This document shows, piece after piece, positions 1-62,692 of a stretch of 64,000 bases of DNA. The DNA is taken from assembly GCF_023051145.1 (NCBI RefSeq), contig NZ_JALKFS010000005.1:62001-126000 (forward strand), given 5' to 3'. The DNA comes from Williamsia sp. DF01-3. GTDB lineage: Bacteria; Actinomycetota; Actinomycetes; Mycobacteriales; Mycobacteriaceae. The position numbers and the translations under genes are program-made. Position 1 is the stretch's first letter. Every line of letters starts with the position of its first letter. The notes below the pieces were generated by a model that was not told where the DNA came from, did not search any database, and saw nothing but the letters and a program-made list of their open reading frames with translations.

Positions 1-872
1 GCAAGAACGCGATGAAGTCGTAATTCCCGGAGATAAGTCATGGGGGAGGGTTGATCGGAGTCGGCGAACGCCTGTTGCAACGTCCTCCCGCTGACACCCA
101 CCTCGCCTGCCAGTTCGCCAGTGGTCCACGCCCGTTCCGGTTGAGCGTGCATGAAATCGATTGCTTGCTTCGTCGCCTTCCCGCCCGCACTGCTCGCTCT
201 CCGACCCACCATTTCGTCGGCAAATGTATGTGGCTGCGTGAGAAGCAGACCCTGGATCAGAAGATGCTGCACATTTGCTACTGCAAGACGGTGACCAAAG
301 ACTCCGTCGGGCCGCACTCCGTCCTGTGCCAACACCTTGACCAGGGCCAACCAGGTGAATGCGGTTGGTGTAGATACGTTCAACAGCGATGGGAACACCA
401 GGCTCGATCGAACCGGTCGATCAAGCATCATCTCCAACTCGCGATGAAGCGTTCCAGGTCGAATCTTGAGGTAGAGCTGGCTGCAGTCCCGCGACCAGGC
501 GATGGCACCCGCCGACCCAGGAGCGAACACCGCAGCAAAACCCGGCCGCGTGATGATTGCCCCCGCACCCCCATCCCAAGTGTTCACCGCACGGCCGGCC
601 AGCACGATGTTGATGTAGTAGTCGGCGATCTCCCTTACCTCGGTTCTGACCGCGGCCCCGAAAGAGAGGCGTCCCAACGTCAGCGCCGGCAGCTCCAGCG
701 CCTGCAGGTGGGCATCGAGTACCCCCGCCCGGAGGACGGTGAGCTCAGTTGCCAGATAGATGCGCTCCATAGTCTCACGCGCCTCATCAACGTCACCGGT
801 GCGCACAGCAGACAGTCCGTCCCTTGGGCCGAAAGTGCCGGCGGCAGATGCTTTTATTTCGCGACTATCCAT
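1..872 (-). CDS. AraC-family transcriptional regulator (3' end cut by window edge)
   Basis: The minus strand reads open from an ATG at 872 to the window edge, about 290 codons without a stop. The C-terminal end carries an AraC-type helix-turn-helix: an AWTTGELAGEVGVSGRTLQQ segment followed by F.DSD..SPMTYLRELRL, which is the family's first HTH and linker. The N-terminal two thirds look like the cupin-type AraC_binding_2 sensor region. The second HTH lies beyond the edge. The gene diverges from the SipW-type surface operon starting at 1251, so it is a candidate regulator of that operon; this is inferred from position only. The family call is firm, the ligand unknown. Confidence 0.85.
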   Translation of the reverse strand, partial: MDSREIKASAAGTFGPRDGLSAVRTGDVDEARETMERIYLATELTVLRAGVLDAHLQALELPALTLGRLSFGAAVRTEVREIADYYINIVLAGRAVNTWDGGAGAIITRPGFAAVFAPGSAGAIAWSRDCSQLYLKIRPGTLHRELEMMLDRPVRSSLVFPSLLNVSTPTAFTWLALVKVLAQDGVRPDGVFGHRLAVANVQHLLIQGLLLTQPHTFADEMVGRRASSAGGKATKQAIDFMHAQPERAWTTGELAGEVGVSGRTLQQAFADSDQPSPMTYLRELRLHRVL

Positions 873-1250
873 TAAACGATAATAGTGTGGCCGCAAAACG
901 AATACAAGCAAATGCGAATATCGGTCCAATTTGATCTTGTCGGCCACACGAAATGCGCAAAATCGGAGACATATTTGCGATATTTAGGAAGCCTGGCCCG
1001 CGCTGCGACGCCTTGACCTGCCCATTTAGCGGGTGAAAAAATATCCGTAACGGAAAGCTCAAAAATGCGACATACTAGATGAGCGCTGGGTGATGTACCT
1101 GTTTCGAGGTACTTGTTTCGGGCCAGTCGGCGCTGAGGGCGAAATGAATTCGTCCGACCTCTCGAGTTTCATTTCGGGTTTTCGAGGTTGAGCCGCGTCC
1201 ATCGTTCCATCTCAGCGGGTCCAAGCGGGCCCACTACAGGAAGATTGACC
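873..1250. promoter_or_regulatory. Divergent intergenic region with repeats and a leader stem-loop
   Basis: This AT-richer 378-bp gap separates the AraC regulator from the surface-protein operon. It contains a 9-bp inverted repeat (GTGTGGCCG at 885-893, CGGCCACAC at 941-949). It also has a tandem 14-bp direct repeat (1095-1108 and 1109-1122, two mismatches) and a 9-bp inverted repeat (CGAAATGAA at 1140-1148, TTCATTTCG at 1168-1176) that could form a hairpin in the mRNA leader. A ribosome site (AGGAAG) lies just before the ATG at 1251. AraC binding here is inference. Confidence 0.5.
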
Positions 1251-1808
1251 ATGAAGAAGCAAACCAAAGCAGCAGTTGCCGCCGGCGCGGGAGCCATCCT
1301 TCTACTCGGCGGTGCCGGCAGCCTTGCCTACTGGAATGACGAGGGCACCTCTCCTGGCGGGGAGATCAGTTCCGGCCAGCTGTCGCTCGAGGACTGCACC
1401 GACGGCGGAACCTGGACCGATGTCAACAACGGCACCCCGATCGCGAGCATCACCGATTTCCGCATCGTCCCCGGCGACCAGGTTTCGTACACCTGCGAGA
1501 CCGCCGTCAACGCCACCGGAGACAACCTCACTGCAACTCTGTCCGTCGACCTCGGCGACGTCACCGGAGATACAGCGCTGGAGGCGGCGCTGAACCCGGT
1601 GGTGTCGGCAACCTCAAACGGCGTCACACTCCCGGGCGGCCCCACGGGAGTACAGATTGTTCCCACAGGAGCAGCTCAGCCCATCGTCGTCACGGTGACA
1701 ATGACATTCGACCCAGGCACCTTGGGTACGACCGCGCAGAACGAGACGATCAATCTCTCTGCCACGACGCTCACCCTGGTCCAGAACACCAATCCAGTTA
1801 CTCCCTAA
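1251..1808 (+). CDS. Exported protein with alternate (SipW-type) signal peptide
   Basis: This is a 185-residue protein. Its N-terminus is MKK, a hydrophobic stretch of about 20 residues, then a SLAYWNDEGTS junction followed by GGEISSGQLSL. That is the pattern of actinobacterial alternate-type signal peptides processed by SipW-like peptidases. The mature part is Thr/Val/Asn-rich and probably all-beta, like TasA-type fibre subunits, with two Cys early in the mature part. The ATG at 1251 is preferred over one at 1188 because it has AGGAAG upstream and puts the signal peptide at the N-terminus. It is the first gene of an operon that also encodes two signal peptidases. A fibre or surface role is inferred. 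Confidence 0.8.
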   Translation: MKKQTKAAVAAGAGAILLLGGAGSLAYWNDEGTSPGGEISSGQLSLEDCTDGGTWTDVNNGTPIASITDFRIVPGDQVSYTCETAVNATGDNLTATLSVDLGDVTGDTALEAALNPVVSATSNGVTLPGGPTGVQIVPTGAAQPIVVTVTMTFDPGTLGTTAQNETINLSATTLTLVQNTNPVTP

Positions 1809-1812
1809 TTAG

Positions 1813-2337
1813 GTGAAGAAGCTCTGGTTGGGGGCTGCGGCCGCCGTGACGATCACCGTGCTGGTTTTGCTGTCAACGCAGCAAACCAGCGCGACCTGGC
1901 GTGGCCAGGATCAGATCGGCGCCGCAACCCTCACATCAGGCGAGTTGAGGATTCTCGCCGGCGGCTCGAACACGTACCCGTGGACGGCCTTCGGCGGGAT
2001 CAACCTCAGCCCGGGCTCGGTGGTTCAACGCCCACTGACCATTTCGGTGGTGGGCAATACCAAGGTCAGCTACCGACTCCAGTCGATCTCGCCGACCACG
2101 TCCGGGGTTCCACTGACCTTCTCCGCCTGGGTCGTCGGCAGCATCGCCGGTTGCCCGACCAGTGGAAATCCGACAAACATCGTGGCCGGACCGTGGACTG
2201 CATTCCCGTCTGCTGCCCGAACTGTCCCCATCAACACCTCCGAGGTCTGGTGCTTACGGGCAACTGTCGGCAATGGGGCACCACAGAACAGCACGAGCTC
2301 CGTTACTCTCAATTTCCGAGCGGATCAACAGCTATGA
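1813..2337 (+). CDS. Exported SipW-type substrate protein
   Basis: The GTG start lies four bases after the preceding stop. The 174-residue product has a Lys-containing N-terminus, a hydrophobic core (about residues 5-22) and then TSATWRGQDQIGAATLTSGEL. The aromatic residue soon after the hydrophobic core, followed by a T.TSG.L segment, matches the SipW-dependent signal pattern of its neighbours. The rest is predicted beta-rich with conserved-looking Cys near residues 118 and 147. It overlaps the downstream peptidase gene by ATGA. It is probably a second minor or major subunit of the same surface structure; no enzymatic motif is visible. Confidence 0.75.
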   Translation: MKKLWLGAAAAVTITVLVLLSTQQTSATWRGQDQIGAATLTSGELRILAGGSNTYPWTAFGGINLSPGSVVQRPLTISVVGNTKVSYRLQSISPTTSGVPLTFSAWVVGSIAGCPTSGNPTNIVAGPWTAFPSAARTVPINTSEVWCLRATVGNGAPQNSTSSVTLNFRADQQL

Positions 2338-2933
2338 CCGATTCAGAATCCGCAGACGAGCACACCGGGCCCCTATGGTGGATACGTTCCGCACTGAGCT
2401 GGGCGTTGCTGCTGTCGATGTCGGCGGTCCTGGTGGTCACCATTGTGATCCCGGTCGCGGCCGGTGCCGACCGGTTCACAGTGCTGACGGGGTCCATGCA
2501 GCCGACGTATCCGCCGGGAACGTTGATCATCGTCAAACCCGTAGATTCCAAAGACCTTCGGCTCGGTGACGCGATCACGTACCAACTGCGGCCAGGTGAG
2601 CCCGCGGTCGTCACGCACCGCATCGTCGCCAGCTCTCAAAACGCCAGGGGTGAGCGGACATACACCACGCAGGGTGACGCAAACGACACCCCCGACACCG
2701 AACCCGTTGTGGCCGAACAGGTCAATGGAAAGGTCTGGTACAGCATTCCCTATCTCGGTTATGTCAACAACTGGCTCACCGGACAGCAGCGCGCCTGGAC
2801 CATCGGCGCACTGGTGATCGGATTGTTCTCCTACGCCCTCCTGCTGACTGTCGGCAGCGTTCGCGACGCACGACGCTCACGTCGGCAGGAGCCCGGATCA
2901 GAAGAGACGTCACATCATGTCGCACAGCTTTGA
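2334..2933 (+). CDS. Signal peptidase I, ER/SipW type
   Basis: The 199-residue membrane peptidase starts at the ATG that overlaps the previous stop. It has a transmembrane helix at about 18-42, the nucleophile motif LTGSMQPTY (Ser54) and VVTHRIV with His95. It has the box QGDAND (about 113-118), then Y.G and a second helix at about 155-174. A His in place of the usual general-base Lys is the hallmark of archaeal/ER-type enzymes such as Bacillus SipW. It would cleave the alternate signal peptides encoded on both sides. Family assignment is firm; which substrates it processes is inferred from the operon. Confidence 0.9.
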   Translation: MTDSESADEHTGPLWWIRSALSWALLLSMSAVLVVTIVIPVAAGADRFTVLTGSMQPTYPPGTLIIVKPVDSKDLRLGDAITYQLRPGEPAVVTHRIVASSQNARGERTYTTQGDANDTPDTEPVVAEQVNGKVWYSIPYLGYVNNWLTGQQRAWTIGALVIGLFSYALLLTVGSVRDARRSRRQEPGSEETSHHVAQL

Positions 2934-3555
2934 CTCGACCCGTTTCCGGGAGGCGCTCACCGGGCCACTCGGTGTCCGACTGCGAGCAATGCTGGCCATC
3001 GGCATCGTCCTGGGACTCGGCGCCGTCGGGACGATGGCATTGTGGAGCAATTCCGTGGCGGCAACGTCGGGAGACTTCAAGACCGGCGTGGTCGACCTCC
3101 GCGTCAACGCAGTCAAGGAGTACTCGTATACCGGCGCAACGGGTCTCACCATGACCAACATGCTCCCGGGCGAGAGCAGAGCGGCAACACTGCAGGTGCA
3201 AAACAGCCTTTCAACACTTCCGGTCAGCTACACGATGGCAGCAAGTACCCCGGTGGGTAGCCCTGCACTCGCCAACAATCTTCGGATGACGGTCTTCGCG
3301 AGTGCCTCACCCACCAACGGAACCGCCAACGGCCTGACCACCGGAAGCTGCACCGGCACCCAGATCGGCACAGCCGTTCTGCGGGCTGGCAACTCAGTGT
3401 CCGTCGTCACCACCGCGCAGACGCTGAGCGCGACCGCGGGCACCAATACAAGAGCGCTGTGTTTTGTTGTGGCACTCGTGCCGGCCGCTCCCCTCAGCGT
3501 CCAGAGTCAGACACTCTCGTCCATCACCGCCACGTTCACTGCGACATCAACATGA
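2917..3555 (+). CDS. Exported SipW-type substrate protein
   Basis: The ATG lies 17 bp inside the end of the signal-peptidase gene. The 212-residue protein has an unusually long N-region (about 24 residues) before a hydrophobic core (25-42) and the junction TMALWSNSVAATSGDFKTG. This is again the alternate-signal pattern, with Trp43 and an A.TSGDF motif. The mature part is Thr/Ser/Ala-rich and probably a beta-sandwich. Its final codons overlap the start of the fused peptidase gene (ATGA at 3552-3555), so translational coupling across the operon is likely. Confidence 0.78.
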   Translation: MSHSFDSTRFREALTGPLGVRLRAMLAIGIVLGLGAVGTMALWSNSVAATSGDFKTGVVDLRVNAVKEYSYTGATGLTMTNMLPGESRAATLQVQNSLSTLPVSYTMAASTPVGSPALANNLRMTVFASASPTNGTANGLTTGSCTGTQIGTAVLRAGNSVSVVTTAQTLSATAGTNTRALCFVVALVPAAPLSVQSQTLSSITATFTATST

Positions 3556-5471
3556 CGCACACAATTGCCCATCCGACCGAGCATCGAAGTCGCGCCAGGA
3601 TCCTTCGCGAGATCGCGCTGACGGCCGGTGCCGCCCTCGGCCTGCTCTGCATCATCGCGGCAGCGGCAGCCATGTTCCTCGGCATCACGCCGCTGATCGT
3701 TCGGTCCGGCTCGATGGAGCCCACCATCCCCACAGGTGCGCTGGCCATCGCAAAAGACGTGTCCGCCACCGACATCAGTGCTGGTGATGTCATCAGCGTC
3801 AACAACGCTCAGCGAATCCGAATCACTCACCGCGTGGTGTCGGTCGACTCCACCGCAGGCGACGCTGTGGCACTGACCCTGCAAGGCGACGCCAACAACG
3901 TGCCAGATGCCCTCCCCTACGTGGTCGACTCCGCCGACAGGGTGTTGTTCCACGTCAACGGCCTGGGCTACGTGGCCGCGTGGCTGGACACACCCGCCGC
4001 GAAAGTCATCGGCGGCCTGTTTGTGGTCGGCCTTCTCTGGTTGGTGGTCTTTCCCACGGGCCGTAATCGAAAAGACAGCGCCGGCAAGACGCCACGCGCC
4101 GACAAACCCAAACATGCGGCCACTGCTGCGCCGCCTCTCATCGCCCTGGGACTGGCAGCGGCCATGCTGGTCACTCTCGCAAATTCCGAAGGTACGGCTG
4201 CCGTATATAGCAGTTCCGCCACCGCGACCACCGGGTCATTCGCATCTCGAGCCGAGTTTGCCCCGCGGATCGACACATATGTTTCGGGGTTGAACTACGT
4301 CACCTGCGCCACCAGCGGCCCATCGAACCTACGCGTGGTCACTCTCAACTGGGCGCACATTGGGCAGCCCTATCAGTACCGCGTCATCTTGCGGGATCTC
4401 GATGGCAATATTTGGCGAACCGTGGACGTCACTCCCCCGGCCTCGAGTACTACAGGGTCAATAATTTCGACGACGTTCGGCGCGAGCGGGTTTCCGTATC
4501 GCGGTGGCGTTATTTGGCAGTACAACGCTGAGATTCACACCATGCTCCCCGGTGGAGCCGTCTCCTCGACCTGGCGCGGCTTCCGTGTGTATCAGGATTC
4601 GACATTGGCGTGGCGCGAGAACCTGACGTGCAGCGGGGGCGGGGAGCAGTCCGGGATCGGCACCTACGTCCCCCCTCCTGCGTCCGTCAGTTGCATTACC
4701 AACAGTGGCTCTCGGACCACGGCCACCGTGTCGTGGCCTCACCTGTCCGGTTACACCTACCGGGTGATCGTTCGGGATCCGGCGACTGGGAACGTCATCA
4801 ACGCCGTGGATGTGTCCGCACCGACTGGCACCGCCGCGGGTCAGCCGGTGAGTAGAACTGTCTCCGTATTCGAGGTCAGTGGTCTCTCCGGCACAGCTGC
4901 GAACGTCGAAGTCCGTACCCGCGTGGACAACGCACACCAGTCCACGGAATTTGTGACGCAAGGAATTACCTCAACCTCGACCGGTGTCGCCTGCGCTGTG
5001 GCCGCGCCGAGCGGCCTCCGCATGGCTCCCTCGACGACAGCGACCACGACTACAACCAGCCCCCCGCCGACAACGACCGCCGCACCCACAACCACCACCA
5101 CAACCGCCGCACCCACCACAACAACGGCCACCGCCGCACCCACCACAACAACAACGACCACCGCCGCACCCACCACGACGACGACAACCACCACAACCGC
5201 GACGGAACAACCCATCTCAGCGGCAACCACCTCGTCATCGGGCAGCTACTCAGCACAGTTGATGCAGACCGCCACCGGCCCCGCGGTGGTCATCCGAAAC
5301 GCGAGCAATGTGGAGGAATTCCGCACACCCGCAGCAGCCGATGACACCCTGCAATGGGTCACCGGTTCCGACGAACTGCGGGTCACCGGCGTATCGGGGA
5401 CGACCTCCATCAGCCGTGAAACCGGAACATGGCTCTCCTCGCCCTATCTGGAGCCCACCGGCTCCGGGTAA
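3552..5471 (+). CDS. ER-type signal peptidase fused to a SipW-type exported region with Thr-rich linker
   Basis: A 639-residue protein. Residues 1-170 form a second ER-type signal peptidase: helix about 20-44, IVRSGSMEPT with Ser54, ITHRVV with His93, QGDANN about 111-116, and a helix about 151-168. After a basic linker comes another hydrophobic segment (about 194-210) followed by EGTAAVYSSSATATTGSF, which resembles the alternate signal junctions of the neighbouring substrates. Next are two similar beta domains (about 245-360 and 375-480) that share YRVI.RD..GN......VDV.. motifs. A Thr/Pro/Ala tract (about 495-551) and a short C-terminal domain follow. The enzyme may process its own C-terminal half; this is inference. 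Confidence 0.82.
   Translation: MTHTIAHPTEHRSRARILREIALTAGAALGLLCIIAAAAAMFLGITPLIVRSGSMEPTIPTGALAIAKDVSATDISAGDVISVNNAQRIRITHRVVSVDSTAGDAVALTLQGDANNVPDALPYVVDSADRVLFHVNGLGYVAAWLDTPAAKVIGGLFVVGLLWLVVFPTGRNRKDSAGKTPRADKPKHAATAAPPLIALGLAAAMLVTLANSEGTAAVYSSSATATTGSFASRAEFAPRIDTYVSGLNYVTCATSGPSNLRVVTLNWAHIGQPYQYRVILRDLDGNIWRTVDVTPPASSTTGSIISTTFGASGFPYRGGVIWQYNAEIHTMLPGGAVSSTWRGFRVYQDSTLAWRENLTCSGGGEQSGIGTYVPPPASVSCITNSGSRTTATVSWPHLSGYTYRVIVRDPATGNVINAVDVSAPTGTAAGQPVSRTVSVFEVSGLSGTAANVEVRTRVDNAHQSTEFVTQGITSTSTGVACAVAAPSGLRMAPSTTATTTTTSPPPTTTAAPTTTTTTAAPTTTTATAAPTTTTTTTAAPTTTTTTTTTATEQPISAATTSSSGSYSAQLMQTATGPAVVIRNASNVEEFRTPAAADDTLQWVTGSDELRVTGVSGTTSISRETGTWLSSPYLEPTGSG
5034..5204 (+). repeat. Degenerate Thr/Ala/Pro-coding repeat tract
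   Basis: Low-complexity DNA, about 170 bp, encodes Thr runs separated by AAP. The element GCCGCACCCAC recurs four times with ACC/ACA/ACG-rich spacers of varying length. It lies inside the fused peptidase gene between its paired beta domains and its C-terminal domain. Such tracts act as extended stalks in surface proteins and vary in length by slippage. Confidence 0.8.
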
Positions 5472-5573
5472 CCAGCACCCGCACGCAGCGGCTCGACAGA
5501 ACGCCACGAGGCAATTCGACCTGTTCGACGGTTGATCCTGTCTCGTCGACGCCTCGGGCGGTACTGTCCGATC

Positions 5574-6323
5574 GTGGACTACACCGATGCACTCGTAGAA
5601 CAGAACCGGCTCCTCGGCGAGGCGATCCGGGATGCCGACTTCACGCAGCCCGTGCCCACTTGCCCCGAGTGGACGATCCAGCAGTTGTTCCGGCACGTCG
5701 GACGTGGAGATCGCTGGGCGGCGCAGATCGTGGGCGAAAAACGTGACAGCCCGGCCGATCCGCGTCAGGTTCCGAATGGCAAACCGCCGGAAGACATCGA
5801 CGGGGCAATCGAGTGGTTCAACGGCGGGGTGCAGACGCTCCTCGACGCAGTCGCACAGACCGGTGCCCACACCCCGGTGTGGACGTTCACCGGGCCCCAG
5901 CCGGCCGCCTGGTGGATTCGACGACGTTTGCATGAGACCACCGTGCACCGTGCGGATGCCGAACTGGCGCTTGGTGTTCGGTTCGATCTCTCTGCCGATC
6001 TCGCCGCCGACGGAATTTCCGAATGGCTGGGTCTAATGGCGGCGCGACCGGCAGACCCGGCCTCTCCGCTGAACGACGGGGCCACGCTGCACCTGCACGC
6101 TGCCGAGGCCGATCTCGGCTCAGCCGGTGAGTGGTTCATCCGCGGCGACGAAGGAGCGGTGGTGTGGGACCACCGCCACGCGAAAGCAGACACAGCCGTG
6201 CGGGGACAGGCAACGAACCTACTGCTGGCGATCAGCCGCAGGAAGACGGCGGAGGAAGCGGACATCGAGATCCTCGGCGACCGTCAGGTGTGGGACACCT
6301 GGCTCGAACGTACCCAGTTCTGA
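5574..6323 (+). CDS. Maleylpyruvate-isomerase-family mycothiol-dependent enzyme
   Basis: From the GTG at 5574 the product has 249 residues and the DinB-like four-helix fold of the mycothiol-dependent maleylpyruvate isomerase family. The signature includes PTCPEWTIQQLFRHVGRGD (His41) and RRLHETTVHRADAEL (His120, Glu121, His125), giving the three residues that bind the catalytic metal in this family. A C-terminal SCP2-like segment follows. Physiological substrates of most members are unknown. The upstream ATG-equivalent at 5532 lacks homology-like sequence, so 5574 is preferred. Confidence 0.8.
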   Translation: MDYTDALVEQNRLLGEAIRDADFTQPVPTCPEWTIQQLFRHVGRGDRWAAQIVGEKRDSPADPRQVPNGKPPEDIDGAIEWFNGGVQTLLDAVAQTGAHTPVWTFTGPQPAAWWIRRRLHETTVHRADAELALGVRFDLSADLAADGISEWLGLMAARPADPASPLNDGATLHLHAAEADLGSAGEWFIRGDEGAVVWDHRHAKADTAVRGQATNLLLAISRRKTAEEADIEILGDRQVWDTWLERTQF

Positions 6324-6348
6324 CCGGCAGTTCTGAGTCAGCCGATCA

Positions 6349-7323
6349 TCAAGGCAGTGTCCAGAACACCACGGTGACAAGGTAGAACACCACGGTCCAC
6401 AGAGCCATCACCCCGAGGATCACAGCGAACCCCCGCAAGTTCGTTTGTCTCTTGGGAGTGTTCGGTGACGGGTACAACCAGTGACCGAGGATCTTGTTGA
6501 CGTAGAACGGCATCGTGAAAAACGTCATCACGAAGCTCGACAGCAGGTTGCCGATCAAAAGCCCCAGCCACAGCGGCATTCCCAGGGGCGAAAGGGCGAG
6601 CGACAGCAGCACCACGGTCGGGTAGAGACCTACCCAGACGGCAGTGGACATCTTCGTGTCCGACGGTATCGGCGCACGGTGACCGTCTTGGTCGAACGCG
6701 AACCAGCTACCGAATGAGTTGTCGATGGTGCGCAACTCGAACTCGTTGAACTTCTTGCCCTCCTCGAGCAGGACCTGCCGCTCACGGGAGGTGAGCCACG
6801 CATCCAGGTCGGCGGCACTGTCGAAGCGGTACAACGCCGTCCACTCGTTCTGCAGGCCCTCGATGGGACGGAACAATTCGGTACCGCGAAAGCCCTTGAA
6901 CCCGGACTCGGCCTCGCGCATACGGCCCTGCCATTCGAGGAAGTCGTCGGTGTGTTCCGGCGAGACGCGGTGAGTCACCACCACGGTGACAAGCGGATCC
7001 ACCGGGGCCGCGCCACCGGTGATGACCTGTTGCGTCGCGGGGCCGTCGAAGTACTCCCGGCCCCTGTCGAGATGTTCTTGCCGTGTGGCGCTGTTGATCC
7101 AGGCCTGCACGTGAGCCACCGAGTCGAAGCGATACACCACCACCCAGTCGGGCTGCACGTCTGTCGGTTGAGCCGTCTCGGCGGCGATGAATCCCGGGTA
7201 GCGGGCGGCCGCGGCATTCATGTCGTCCTGCCAGATGGCGAATGCACGTTCGGTTCCGGGGTTGACCTTCTGACCGATGATCACCGTTGCGGCGTTGTTT
7301 GTTGTCGTTGCTTCGGCGGTCAT
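6349..7323 (-). CDS. Antibiotic-biosynthesis-monooxygenase (ABM) domain membrane protein
   Basis: The 324-residue protein contains two tandem ABM (dimeric alpha/beta barrel) domains, about residues 12-95 and 108-190. Each has the W...YRFDS...AWI/L pattern. They are followed by three or four transmembrane helices in the C-terminal third (about 220-320). ABM domains occur in small monooxygenases and heme-degrading or quinone-forming enzymes, but fused membrane versions like this have no assigned reaction. It ends 26 bp from the convergent isomerase-fold gene. The start ATG at 7323 is the natural N-terminus. Confidence 0.8.
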   Translation of the reverse strand: MTAEATTTNNAATVIIGQKVNPGTERAFAIWQDDMNAAAARYPGFIAAETAQPTDVQPDWVVVYRFDSVAHVQAWINSATRQEHLDRGREYFDGPATQQVITGGAAPVDPLVTVVVTHRVSPEHTDDFLEWQGRMREAESGFKGFRGTELFRPIEGLQNEWTALYRFDSAADLDAWLTSRERQVLLEEGKKFNEFELRTIDNSFGSWFAFDQDGHRAPIPSDTKMSTAVWVGLYPTVVLLSLALSPLGMPLWLGLLIGNLLSSFVMTFFTMPFYVNKILGHWLYPSPNTPKRQTNLRGFAVILGVMALWTVVFYLVTVVFWTLP

Positions 7324-7556
7324 CGCCGGCTCCTACTCGTCGTCACGCGGTGGAATCACGGGCAGGCCGGCTCGGGCCACACCTCGACGTGACTCGAAGC
7401 GCGTCGTCTCGACTTCCTGGCGGCGCAATCGTACGTGAGCCGACGGCGTTTCACCGGCCGTGTGGAGAAATCGCCCATCGGCACCACCTCGGTGCAACCG
7501 AAGGAGGCACCGACCGCGTGTCACGAAAACCCGCTCGCCCGAGCACCATTGACGCC

Positions 7557-7769
7557 TCAGACGCTGAAGGCGGTCGGAAATCGTCGGCGAAGTGCATCGA
7601 TCTGTCGACGGACCTCGTACAGCTCGAACCGTTTGCGCGAGTGAGTCTCCGCCGACACCTTGTTGTTGGTCAGCTCGTCCTCGATCTGTGTTGCCCACAA
7701 CTCGAGCTGGGCGGCGAAATACGTTGCCTGCGCCTCGTTCGAGTCCTGCTCCCACTGCCCGGAGGTCAT
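7557..7769 (-). CDS. Small hypothetical protein (coiled-coil-like)
   Basis: Seventy residues from an ATG at 7769, acidic in the first half and Arg-rich at the end. It is probably helical throughout (TYFAAQLELWATQIEDEL, then KRFELYEVRRQIDALRRR). I do not recognise a family. The coding strand is supported by amino-acid composition and by the poor composition of the opposite-strand frames. A longer start at 7829 would add 20 residues of unlikely sequence. The 233 bp between it and the ABM gene show no convincing gene. Confidence 0.5.
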   Translation of the reverse strand: MTSGQWEQDSNEAQATYFAAQLELWATQIEDELTNNKVSAETHSRKRFELYEVRRQIDALRRRFPTAFSV

Positions 7770-7839
7770 GGCGCAAAATTGTAGCCGCTCTATAGTTCCT
7801 GACCGACCAAGATGGGAAGCCCAGGTCACACCCGAAGAG

Positions 7840-8073
7840 TCATGCGAGGCGGCGGGTGCACACCTGACGGATCGCGGTCACCACAGATTGGTCGTGGCCA
7901 CCGGCCTGATCGGTGTCGAGCACATCGGTGAGGCGTTCGAAGTAGTCCCGCTCCCCGATGCCGAACTCCACCAGGATGTCGTCGGCCGACCCTCCGCCGT
8001 ACGGGTACCACCGCCGCGCGAAGTCGAGCATTCGCTCCACCTCGTCCGGAGGGATGTTGCTCAGAGTGGTCAT
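7840..8073 (-). CDS. DUF3263-like small protein
   Basis: Seventy-seven residues, with ARRWYPYGGGSADDILVEFG followed by ERDYFERLTDVLD. The pattern (aromatic pair, then I..EFG....YY.RL..LLD) resembles the small actinobacterial DUF3263 proteins, a short helix-turn-helix-like family. The function is unknown. It diverges from the BASS transporter 95 bp away and ends 70 bp after the start of the next small minus-strand gene. The family call rests on pattern memory, not a search. Confidence 0.55.
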   Translation of the reverse strand: MTTLSNIPPDEVERMLDFARRWYPYGGGSADDILVEFGIGERDYFERLTDVLDTDQAGGHDQSVVTAIRQVCTRRLA

Positions 8074-8168
8074 GGTCCAATTATCGATCCTGCGACCGAA
8101 TTTCGCATCCGACAGAGGACCCGGCCGGTCGCCCTGAGAAGATCGCGGGGACCAGAAAGCGAGGGGCA

Positions 8169-9143
8169 GTGCGTCATCGACTGTCGACGTTGGTCGAGGT
8201 CCTCGACCGCCGGCAGGTGATCGTCTACGTGGCGGCCATCGGTGCCGGCATCGTTCTCGGCCTCGTCGCGCCGGGCGCCGGCGAGTCGCTGGACTGGGCC
8301 ATCAACCCGGCTCTCGGCGCGCTCCTCTACGTGACGTTTCTGCAGATCCCCACCCGTGACCTCGCCCGGTCTCTGCGAGACCGCCGGTTCCTGGTCGCTG
8401 TCGGTGTACTCAACTTCGCCATCGTTCCGTTGGTGGTCGCGGCGATGTTCGTCTTCTTGCCGGACGACCAGGCAGTCCGGTTCGGGGTGCTGCTCGTGCT
8501 GCTCAGTCCCTGTATCGATTACGTGATCGTGTTCTCTGGGCTCGCAGGGGGCAGCGCACATCGGTTGCTGGCTGCGACGCCGCTGCTGCTGTTGGCCCAG
8601 ATGCTGTTGTTACCGGTCTACCTCGCCGTGTTCCTGGGCTCGGACCTCGCCCAGATCATCGCGGTAGGACCTCTCGTCGAGGCTTTTGTGATCCTCATCG
8701 TGGTGCCACTGCTGCTCGCGTGGGCCACCCAGACGCTCGCGGTGCGTTTCCTGCTCGCGCGTCGAGTTCGTTCAGGCGCAACAGCCACCATGGTGCCGCT
8801 GATGGTCATCGTGCTGCTCGTTGTTGTCGCGTCGCAGATACCGAAGGTGTCCGGCAGCCTCGGTGACGTCGTCGCGGTTGTGCCGTTCTATGTTCTCTTC
8901 CTGGTCGTGATGGCTTTTGTAGGTCGCTGGGTGGCATCGAAATTCGCGTTCGACAACCCCGGTCGCCGCGCACTGGTCTTCAGCGGCGCCACCCGCAACT
9001 CACTCGTGGTGCTCCCCCTGGCCCTCGCCCTACCGGCGGGCTACGAACTGGCAGCGGCCGTGGTGGTCACGCAGACCCTGGTCGAAGTGGTCGGCATGGT
9101 CGTCTACGTCCGGGTGATCCCGTACCTGATCCCTTCCCGTTGA
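8169..9143 (+). CDS. BASS-family (bile acid:Na+ / arsenite-type) transporter
   Basis: The 324-residue protein has about ten transmembrane helices and starts at GTG 8169. [16 protein letters not shown] near residue 50 and [17 protein letters not shown] around residue 115 match the SBF/ACR3 superfamily. In arsenite permeases the corresponding position holds a conserved Cys, and Cys is present here. Members annotated as arsenic-resistance proteins look like this, but no arsenate reductase or ArsR lies nearby. The substrate, an arsenite or organic anion, is therefore open. Confidence 0.8.
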
Positions 9144-9208
9144 CATCGCCAGCGCAATTGTCCGAAACGTTCACGAGACCGTGGCCGCCCTCACCTAGCG
9201 TGAGAAGG

Positions 9209-9643
9209 GTGCAACTCGACCAGCAGATCCACTTCCTGACCTTCGCCACCGCCGACCTCGACGCCGCACGGCAGTTCTATGTGAACGGACTCGCATGGAA
9301 ACCGCTGATGGACGTGGAGAACGAGATCATCTTCTTCCAGATCGCGCCCGGCGTTGTCCTCGGGTTCTTCGAGGCCGGTAAGTTCGCCGAAGACATCGGC
9401 GTGGCTGATGCCCCATCGATATCCGGTGCAACAGTTGCCCACAACGTCGACAGTCGGGATGCTGTCCGGGCGGTCGCCGACGCCATGGTCGCGGCCGGCG
9501 CGTCCGTGCTCAAACCGCCACAACCGGGCGCTTTCGGTGGCATCTTCCACGCACAGGTGCGTGATCCCAACGGCCTCATCTGGGAGATCGCGCACAACCC
9601 CGGCTGGCACGTCGAGGCCGACGGAACAGTGGTCCTCGCCTGA
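9209..9643 (+). CDS. VOC (glyoxalase/bleomycin-resistance) family protein
   Basis: From the GTG at 9209 (GAGAAGG upstream) the 144-residue product has the paired beta-alpha-beta-beta-beta modules of the vicinal-oxygen-chelate fold. It shows [21 protein letters not shown] at the start and [16 protein letters not shown] near the end, with His and Glu in metal-ligand positions. A 23-residue upstream extension to 9140 is possible but lacks fold residues. The substrate is unknown; it is not part of an evident pathway here. Confidence 0.78.
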
Positions 9644-9729
9644 CTCGGTCCTTCGAATGCTTTTCGGTCGGCAACAGGAGGTCGCGACGTACGGTGGGAT
9701 CAGCACGTGACCATCACCAGCGAGGATCG

Positions 9730-9879
9730 ATGACCTTTCCATTCGAAGACGAAGAGCCCATCGGTGAGACCGATGAGCTCCGCAGACAAGCCGCGGTCTA
9801 CGAGGCCGGCGAACACGGCCACGAGATCAACCGCGGTCATGCTCTGGGTGGAACCGAAGGTTCCACGGACGGGCAGTAA
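9730..9879 (+). CDS. Small acidic hypothetical protein
   Basis: Forty-nine residues from an ATG at 9730 with GAGG just upstream. The peptide is strongly acidic (EDEEPIGETDEL) and Gly/His-rich at its end (EHGHEINRGHALGGTEG). It stops five bases before the start of the GH16-like gene, which suggests co-transcription. No family is recognised. It is kept because of its ribosome site, composition and tight spacing. Confidence 0.5.
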   Translation: MTFPFEDEEPIGETDELRRQAAVYEAGEHGHEINRGHALGGTEGSTDGQ

Positions 9880-9884
9880 CTCAC

Positions 9885-10661
9885 GTGGTCACCGACATCG
9901 GCGGTCGACGCCTGACCTTCTCCGAGGAGTTCGACAACCACGAGTTGGACCCGGCCGTGTGGTCCCCGCACTACTTGCCCGCCTGGAGTTCGCGGGCGCA
10001 CACCGCGGCCACCTACAGGATCTCCGACTCCTGTCTGCATCTGTCCATCCCGCCGGAGCAGCCGCTGTGGCTGGCAGGCGAGCACTCCGCGCTGCGGGTC
10101 TCGGGTATCCAGTCGGGCAACGGATCCGGAGCAGTCGGCAGCACTCTGGGACAGCAACCGCCTTTCGACGGGGCCGTGGTGCGAGAGCACCAACCGGAGT
10201 TTCGCGGCTGGACACCGGCGGGCGGCTACCTGGAGATCCGGATGCGTGCCACCGTCTCGCCCAGATCCATGTTCGCCTGGTGGATGGTGGGTCTTGAAGA
10301 CGTTCCCGAGCGCAGCGCCGAGATCTGTGTGGCCGAGATCTTCGGTGACACCATCACCTCGTCGACCTCCGCCGCGGTGGGTACCGGTCTGCATCCGTTT
10401 CGCGATCCGTCGGTGGTCGACGATTTCACGACGACGGTGCTGCCCATCGATGTGAGCGACTTCCATGACTACGCGGTCGAGTGGACCCCCGATGCAGTCG
10501 AGTTCTACGTCGACGGCACGTTTGTACGGCGATGCATCAATCCCCCGACCTATCCCATGCAGATGATGCTGGCCGTCTTCGACTTCCCGGAGCGATCCAA
10601 CGGCGCCGACGATGATCTGGTGCCAGAAATGGTGGTCGATCATCTTCGCGGCTACGCCTGA
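9885..10661 (+). CDS. Glycoside hydrolase family 16-like protein, altered catalytic motif
   Basis: The 258-residue protein shows the GH16 beta-jelly-roll pattern: TFSEEFD near the N-terminus, GGYLEIRMRA, FAWWMVG, then a catalytic-loop sequence SAEICVAEIFGD. Later it has HDYAVEWTPDAVEFYVDG and the final strand pair. GH16 enzymes carry E-I-D-x-x-E; here both Glu (146 and 151) are present but the central Asp is Cys148. There is no signal peptide, so it appears cytoplasmic. It could be a weak or repurposed glucanase; the fold call is strong, activity uncertain. Confidence 0.78.
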   Translation: MVTDIGGRRLTFSEEFDNHELDPAVWSPHYLPAWSSRAHTAATYRISDSCLHLSIPPEQPLWLAGEHSALRVSGIQSGNGSGAVGSTLGQQPPFDGAVVREHQPEFRGWTPAGGYLEIRMRATVSPRSMFAWWMVGLEDVPERSAEICVAEIFGDTITSSTSAAVGTGLHPFRDPSVVDDFTTTVLPIDVSDFHDYAVEWTPDAVEFYVDGTFVRRCINPPTYPMQMMLAVFDFPERSNGADDDLVPEMVVDHLRGYA

Positions 10662-61855: not shown

Positions 61856-62692
61856 TCAGCCCGTCGGATCCCGCCACCACAGGTCGGTGGGGGCAACCGG
61901 AACGGTGCGCTTGTGTCTGGTCTTGACGAAGGCCTGCTCGATGGTCTTGGCCGCCTCGTCGGAGACGGCCTCTCCGGTCAGGTACGCATCGATTTCGCGG
62001 TAGGTGACGCCCAGGGCTTCCTCGTCCGGGATGGCGGGCCGGTCGTCTTCCAGATCGGCGGTAGGCACCTTGGTCCACAGACTGTCGGGTGCCCCCAGAT
62101 GTTCCAGGAGCCGCGCTCCCTGCCCCTTCGTCAATCCCGAGAGGGGAACCACGTCAGCGCCGCCATCTCCGTACTTGGTGAAGAATCCGGTCACTGCCTC
62201 GGCGGCATGGTCGGTGCCCACGACGATGAGGTTCAACTGGCCGGCCACGGCATACTGCACGATCATCCGCTCCCGAGCCTTGACGTTGCCACGGACCAGG
62301 TCCGTGAGCTCATCGATACCCAGCGCAGCGGCGGTGGCCTTTGCCGCGGCATCGGCGGTGTCCTTGATGTTCACGCTGATCGTGCGGCTCGGCTTGATGT
62401 AGTCGATAGCGGTGTCGACGTCGGCCTGGTCAGCCTGTACGCCATACGGAAGCAAGACCGCCACGAACTCGGCTGAACCTCCCGATTGGTTGATCCGGTC
62501 GACTGCCAACTGACACAGGCGGCCGGCCAGCGAACTGTCCTGCCCACCACTGATACCCAAGACGAAACCGTTTGCTCCGGCGTTCTGCGCGTAGTCGACC
62601 AGGAACTGCACCCGGTTCTCGACCTCCGCGGCGACATCGATGTCGGCGCGGACATCCAACTCGTTTCGGATTGTGTCTTTGAGGGAATACAT
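61856..62692 (-). CDS. nadE: NAD+ synthetase (ammonia-dependent type)
   Basis: 278 residues. The P-loop [10 protein letters not shown] (48-54) and [17 protein letters not shown] are seen. [38 protein letters not shown] is the NaAD site, here cited by its key residues around GTDHAAEA and TKYGDG. The C-terminal segment [11 protein letters not shown] with [10 protein letters not shown] completes the fold. It lacks the amidase domain of glutamine-dependent mycobacterial NadE, so it uses ammonia. It diverges from a CinA/PncC gene across a 19-bp palindrome, pointing to joint NAD control. Confidence 0.93.

Follow-up and report, generated by a model that had tools for sequence, protein, structure and literature searches.

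The closest described systems are surface fibres of bacteria and archaea. In the tapA-sipW-tasA operon of Bacillus subtilis, a signal peptidase of the endoplasmic reticulum (ER) type with a Ser/His pair adjoins its substrates. TasA carries Phe at P2′ of its cleavage site; according to the accessible part of PMC10269814, an aromatic P2′ contributes to TasA being a poor substrate of LepB and occurs in none of 143 verified LepB substrates. TasA filaments are donor-strand assemblies by cryo-electron microscopy (PMC9674648 and PMC10151520, as far as available), and the title of PMC10516879 speaks of amyloid-like assembly. We analysed a 64,000-nucleotide stretch of Williamsia sp. DF01-3 (the window; positions 62,001–126,000 of a 5.25-Mb contig in a 5.59-Mb genome), which contains an operon of five genes, A to E, at 1251–5471 on the forward strand. 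We consider it probable, though well short of certain, that this operon exports and matures a surface fibre of the TasA/AbpA type, in which two dedicated peptidases process subunits that polymerize by donor-strand exchange and the tail of E acts as an adhesin or anchor.

The genes follow the order A-B-pepC-D-pepE/tail, and the tight packing claimed by the original prediction is confirmed to the base. Gene A (1251–1808, +; 185 residues, ATG start with AGGAAG upstream) encodes an exported protein of the TIGR04089 family with a SipW-type signal. A 4-bp gap separates it from gene B (1813–2337, +; 174 residues, GTG start), a paralogue of D and putative substrate. Gene C (2334–2933, +; 199 residues), encoding what we term the C-type SipW-like signal peptidase, overlaps B in an ATGA (2334–2337) and shares 17 bp (2917–2933) with gene D (2917–3555, +; 212 residues), whose product has a SipW-type signal. 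A second ATGA (3552–3555) joins D to gene E (3552–5471, +; 639 residues), in which an E-type SipW-like signal peptidase is fused to a probably exported tail.

Two samples of relatives were compared. The family set comprises 42 loci, three from this genome and 39 regions that represent every TIGR04089 match over the cut-off in other genomes of the family. The named set holds the best 80 of 241 loci; these were ranked by likeness to a C-type peptidase query, so that C-type presence is built into its counts, and some of its genomes recur among the 39 unnamed regions that served to train our profiles. The full complement of five gene classes (A, both peptidases, and either B and D or two B/D) is found in 40 of the 42 family-set loci and 69 of the 80 named loci. 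Nonsynonymous divergence (dN) from locus L085, described below, is lower than synonymous divergence (dS) in all five open reading frames (ORFs). Given this conservation and dN below dS, the operon is no chance arrangement. The five-gene set is not unique. A second complete operon of the same order lies at about 4.589–4.593 Mb (L014, 5855–10122), and near 4.106 Mb a third locus of smaller size (L015, 5650–7012, minus strand) encodes a D-like SipW-type protein and a tailless E-type peptidase. Identity between the two complete operons has dropped to 60% for E, 70% for C and 72% for B and D.

Cleavage sites were predicted from alignments of chosen rows: the window and, among the rows found, 41 of 84 D-type, 11 of 72 B-type, 39 of 101 A-type and 27 of 71 fused E-type. 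These columns supersede a crude motif scan, which had hit 90/101 A-type, 55/72 B-type and 78/84 D-type proteins. Predicted cleavage falls after Ala26 in A (SLA|YW), at TSA|TW in B and after Ala41 in D (TMA|LW). Ala at P1 and an aromatic P2′ are found in all 53 rows of the joint D/B alignment (42 D, 11 B) and each in 35 of 40 A rows. Two Cys residues of D, Cys145 and Cys182, are likewise invariant in the D/B alignment. The conserved Ala/aromatic pattern, read with the LepB data, suggests that A, B and D are processed by dedicated SipW-type enzymes.

The alternate-signal models agree in part. A passes TIGR04089 (exp_by_SipW_III, cut-off 60 bits) with 165 bits, and both A (28.4) and D (25.3; residues 25–58) pass TIGR04088 (cognate_SipW signal domain, cut-off 19 bits). 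TIGR04089 is not reached by B (20.6), D (15.4) or the E tail, and TIGR04088 gives no match for B or the E tail at an expect value of 1 or less. The original prediction of three alternate-type N termini thus stands by profile for A and D; B fails both models but has the cleavage site of its D paralogues. Failure of the substrates at these profiles, which had been named as grounds for abandoning the idea, is seen for B and not for A or D. We propose that four precursors, A, B, D and the E tail, enter the membrane by SipW-type signals, and that their sites, with Ala at P1 and mostly an aromatic P2′, would suit the housekeeping peptidase poorly and be cut by the two dedicated Ser/His membrane peptidases.

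Both peptidases belong to the ER/archaeal type, with C scoring 99.2 and E 62.3 bits against TIGR02228 (sigpep_I_arch, cut-off 51.85). The catalytic residues are Ser54, His95, Asp115 and Asp121 in C and Ser54, His93, Asp113 and Asp119 in E. None of the 83 peptidase ORFs of the family set, C and E included, departs from the Ser, the His and the two Asp, and in all 83 a Ser-His pair replaces the Ser-Lys dyad (as defined in the available part of PMC10269814). Two signal peptidases with a Ser/His pair, as originally proposed, are therefore present. Genome-wide, a single ordinary signal peptidase exceeds the TIGR02227 cut-off, alongside five of archaeal type: two here, two in the second operon and one at the third locus.

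In the family set the peptidase tree splits into C-type and E-type clades of 42 and 41 rows with support of 100/100, and these two deeply separated clades rule out recent duplication of one peptidase. Both types occur in 76 of the 80 named loci; L149, L154, L158 and L159 have the C-type alone, the stretch of L158 ending early at a contig end. Exceptions in the family set are L015, with an E-type only, L084, whose contig ends before E, and L053, with two C-types. The E-type peptidase of L015 forms a long branch on the tree, and its locus adjoins a 527-residue Thr/Pro-rich ORF with no NCBIfam match.

Each peptidase type mostly keeps its own neighbour. Across the named loci, the gene just upstream of an E-type peptidase is D in 80 of 81 cases, the exception being L100, where the E-type gene is on the opposite strand. 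Upstream of the C-type, B is found in 72 of 82 cases, A in nine (eight Nocardioides-like records without B and one extra copy in W. muralis) and a D-like gene in one (L154); B-type genes nearly always adjoin a C-type peptidase. When the substrates on the tree of B and D proteins are labelled by the peptidase to which they are linked (C or E), 2 changes of label suffice; shuffled labels need about 28 on average. The mixed side of that tree holds 40 C-linked rows and one E-labelled row, which we take to be the B of L064, a locus whose gene order differs. The D-E part precedes A-B-C in L052, L059 and L061–L063, and the two parts converge in L068. From these rearrangements, together with the linkage counts and trees, we read the operon as two substrate-peptidase units, A-B-C and D-E, that appear to be inherited together. 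Duplicated processing, perhaps with one peptidase per substrate class, as the original prediction had it, gains support as a hypothesis from gene order and trees: C would serve the A-B set and E would serve D, and perhaps its own fused tail. An alternative is that the second peptidase adds dosage or redundancy and the two enzymes do not share out the work, for which the retention of all catalytic residues in both would speak. We regard this as quite improbable, since the deep clades co-occur in 76 of 80 loci and the B and D substrates split in parallel, both of which make redundancy hard to accept.

Tandem copies of the D plus E-type unit occur in L109, L125, L126, L131 and L143. A further A-type protein is encoded 3′ of the E gene, or of its separate tail gene, in 11 of the 80 named loci, L091, L093, L095, L110 and L118 among them.

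Gene E had been taken for a plain signal peptidase. Its product is in fact a peptidase followed by a second signal-like membrane segment and a tail, and about two thirds of the protein is this fused, probably exported part. The peptidase part (residues 1–170; 3552–4061, +) consists of a helix (12–42), the catalytic domain and a further helix (148–166). The internal signal-like segment (4131–4202, +) has a basic linker ahead of a helix (194–212) and a predicted SipW-type site, GTAA|VY, after Ala217. Two FN3-like beta domains follow (about residues 250–369 and 380–481; 4299–4994, +), then a Thr/Pro/Ala-rich linker of low predicted local distance difference test score (pLDDT; residues 486–549; 5007–5198, +) and a compact C-terminal beta domain with no Pfam match (residues 566–631; 5247–5444, +). 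Foldseek matches to the model of E are dominated by FN3 proteins and FN3 pairs, with human Sec11C at rank 26. When the E profile was searched against the PDB, the top sequence match was 8zvk (2.7e-10, profile positions 353–446), followed by Sec11A/C; we take the 8zvk match to be one of low complexity, made through positions that we assign to the Thr-rich linker.

The fusion is the common state. A tail, defined in the named set as at least 120 residues after the peptidase, is present in 71 of the 81 E-type ORFs of the 80 loci, and in the family set 30 of 41 E-type ORFs are fused. All 70 tailed ORFs without unread bases have a hydrophobic 15-mer (mean hydropathy above 1.6) after the peptidase, preceded in 51 by a net positive charge over 25 residues. 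By eye, a site resembling AAFTDSATA follows most, but not every one, of these segments; one exception is the second copy in L125. An ordinary peptidase is ruled out for E by its fused tail, and a local artefact by the 71 of 81 fused ORFs and by the fusion in both complete copies of this genome.

Where the tail is not fused it is often encoded separately. A separate tail ORF accompanies 9 of the 11 unfused E-type peptidases of the family set (none was found for L083 or L015 there) and 5 of the 10 tailless ones of the named set (L100, L111, L118, L124 and L156); four of the remaining tailless ORFs are extra tandem copies (L109, L126, L131 and L143) and one is truncated (L160). The fused and unfused states require 5 changes on the family-set tree, at least 2 of them forced by strong branches. 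The tail genes of L124 and L156 each overlap the peptidase gene at its end and have a signal-like start of their own; the tail ORF of L100, located apart from its peptidase, has such a start too, and those of L118 and L111 have unclear starts. Separate ORFs with their own signal-like start indicate that the tail is, in those loci, an exported partner in its own right.

These data bear on whether the tail is a substrate at all. It may instead be a permanent extracellular arm, never cut, with a role as membrane tether for the fibre or in the recruitment of subunits. The prevalence of fusion in both sets, the absence of a TIGR04088 match to the tail and the 11 of 28 internal sites with a non-aromatic P2′ would all fit such an arm. 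We think it possible but doubtful, because Ala occupies P1 in 27 of the 28 fused sites, because most unfused peptidases of the family set and half of those in the named set have a separate tail ORF, and because these separate tails carry their own signal-like start wherever the N terminus is clear. With an aromatic P2′ in 17 of the 28 rows and Leu in another 8, the E tail looks like a SipW-type client that fits the pattern less strictly than A, B and D. On the substrate reading, the FN3-like tail would be a variable, exposed adhesin or anchor. A more speculative extension, to which we attach rather low probability, is that the E peptidase carries its substrate in cis. The uncut tail would then be an adhesin held in the membrane or would nucleate the D fibre, and its cleavage at Ala217, by E itself or by the sister peptidase, would time fibre initiation or release. 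The whole operon, passed from strain to strain as a cassette through recombination of its flanks, would give the surface a modular, interchangeable identity in its dealings with phages, partners or hosts.

A second kind of fusion may exist in L133 (a Nocardia higoensis record), where a 401-residue ORF is matched by the B profile as well as by that of the C-type peptidase and may join a substrate to that peptidase.

The case for a fibre comes chiefly from the fold of D. In the AlphaFold model, residues from about 61 to 212 form a confidently predicted beta sandwich (block-mean pLDDT 80–97). Foldseek ranks the archaeal bundling pilus 7ueg of Pyrobaculum calidifontis first (expect value 8.7e-4) and the TasA fibre 8aur second (1.1e-3), both with probability 1.00. 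Because the predicted fold of D best matches these two fibre subunits, fibre formation by donor-strand exchange is likely. Removal of the signal would free an N-terminal strand of B or D, which could insert into the next subunit and so polymerize at the surface. Weak sequence matches of the D/B profile, to AbpX (0.011) and TasA (0.5), point in the same direction as the fold.

Several results weigh against this picture. TM-scores of D with 7ueg and 8aur are just 0.38–0.43, one match alone has an expect value below 0.001, and below rank 2 chaperone-usher pilins are mixed with unrelated beta proteins. The D/B profile matches are non-significant, and immunoglobulins and a DUF4352 protein (0.028) are interspersed among them. 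TasA is not matched by the A profile, whose best matches are chains of one LPXTG surface protein (0.0037). A, B and D match no Pfam family at an expect value of 1 or less, including the TasA/camelysin family, which we take to be Peptidase_M73; profiles from relatives cross-match among the three, most strongly between B and D. To these must be added the shortfall of B at both signal models, the non-aromatic E sites and the pairing of A-B-C and D-E, which follows from gene order and trees, not from cleavage. The exported proteins might accordingly be non-polymerizing, secreted or wall-bound matrix or adhesion proteins for which the SipW-type signals provide a dedicated secretion route; A without a TasA match, the low fold scores of D and the FN3-like domains of E, suggestive of plain adhesion, would suit them. 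This we judge unlikely, as the top two structural matches of D are fibre subunits and paralogous subunits beside SipW recall the Bacillus cereus operon sipW-calY1-bc_1280-calY2 (PMC10151520, in the part available).

Compared with the known systems, the fibre-forming locus we propose resembles tapA-sipW-tasA in its ER-type Ser/His peptidase beside substrates, its aromatic P2′ residues, the TIGR04088 matches that are found there too and the likeness of the predicted fold of D to 8aur. It differs in having two peptidase clades rather than one peptidase, in gene order and in the joining of a peptidase to a candidate substrate, and neither C (82.7 bits) nor E (52.2) reaches the cut-off of 190 for NF046067, the Bacillus SipW equivalog. 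No TapA was recognized in the operon, although no search aimed at TapA was made. With B. cereus (TasA/CalY/CapP) it shares several paralogous subunits and a further protein per operon; in the accessible part of PMC10151520 one SipW is named and no peptidase fusion mentioned. The archaeal bundling pili (7ueg; AbpX, 9sj2 and 9rhp) provide the best structural and the best, though weak, profile match of D. Within TIGR04089, gene A is a member and B, D and the E tail fall below the cut-off. As a hypothesis, the original idea of an actinobacterial SipW/TasA counterpart is well supported by the peptidases, the signals and, at low TM-scores, the fold of D, and is qualified by the failure of B at the signal models and by a gene order unlike tapA-sipW-tasA.

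Among the literature matches listed, judged by title and start of abstract and with subscription papers and preprints outside the scope, there was no actinobacterial SipW/TasA system, and the searchable literature returned no paper for 'alternate signal-mediated exported protein', 'alternate-type signal peptide' or RER_14450. Apparently new are the inheritance of two peptidase lineages as a pair, a peptidase that is naturally joined to a candidate substrate, and the swapping of entire operons.

Exchange is seen when loci with similar flanks are aligned (82 sequences: the 80 named loci, the locus of the window and L014; at least 85% identity on both sides). In W. muralis L090, flanks of 96.7% and 93.4% identity enclose a different operon: window −230 to 5558, which covers the operon and the neighbouring AraC-family gene, is replaced by L090 6068–11522, whose operon has an extra A and C, at 73% and 72% DNA identity to that of the window. 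At the second W. muralis locus, L164, the flanks are 90.9% and 92.5% identical and the operon cannot be aligned to the second copy of this genome. Among the 29 similar-flank pairs, which are not independent, 10 have less than 30% of the operon at 80% identity or more, and the other 19 have at least 61%. The 10 diverged pairs form four groups. Three pairs at the two Williamsia sites show clear replacement (0–25% alignable), L110/L111 is 39% alignable, and six pairs among Rhodococcus L099–L112 are 57–77% alignable at 73–79% identity, which could reflect fast divergence instead of exchange. As judged from these alignments, the operon behaves as an exchangeable cassette, most clearly at the two Williamsia sites.

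Part of E may also have been exchanged. Positions 1–14579 of L085 (NZ_JNYV01000002.1) are 91.4% identical to window −4681 to 9935 over 14.6 kb, operon included. Within the operon A and D are 96–97% identical and the FN3-like part of E, its most divergent stretch, 64%; dS there is 0.96 as against 0.085, which suggests that the FN3 part has itself been exchanged. Such a pattern of divergence and exchange would be expected of an exposed, diversifying surface structure. The L085 record is filed as Kitasatospora arboriphila NRRL B-24581; the assembly may be mislabelled or contaminated.

TIGR04089 is passed in 36 of 101 genomes of the family and in 2 of 296 genomes drawn across the phylum, this one included; the peptidase scan reached Arthrobacter, Glutamicibacter, Nocardioides, Pimelobacter and Microbacteriaceae. 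If our reading is correct, fibres like TasA and archaeal pili, with a two-peptidase layout, extend to Rhodococcus, Williamsia, Prescottella, Gordonia and Nocardia, and also to Dietzia, Arthrobacter, Glutamicibacter and Nocardioides, genera for which no such fibre was among the literature matches listed. With one peptidase joined to a candidate substrate, substrate choice by SipW-type enzymes can be tested cleanly, and two co-inherited lineages make the question of why there are two peptidases testable. Exchange of whole operons between similar flanks further suggests a variable surface layer in these bacteria.

Divergent from the operon lies a gene for an AraC-family regulator of 362 residues (1–872, minus strand), which extends about 215 bases past the window start. 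It stands beside the operon in 1 of the 80 named loci only, L085. Between 600 and 5700 no RNA element reached the gathering score. A promoter scan found 1 site against a shuffled mean of 1.0, and terminator-like sites numbered 8 against a shuffled mean of 3.0, 7 of the 8 being on the minus strand. Upstream of the operon, at window 1092–1119, is a tandem 14-bp repeat (GATGTACCTGTTTC / GAGGTACTTGTTTC); two-copy repeats can arise by chance, and this one is possibly a regulator site.

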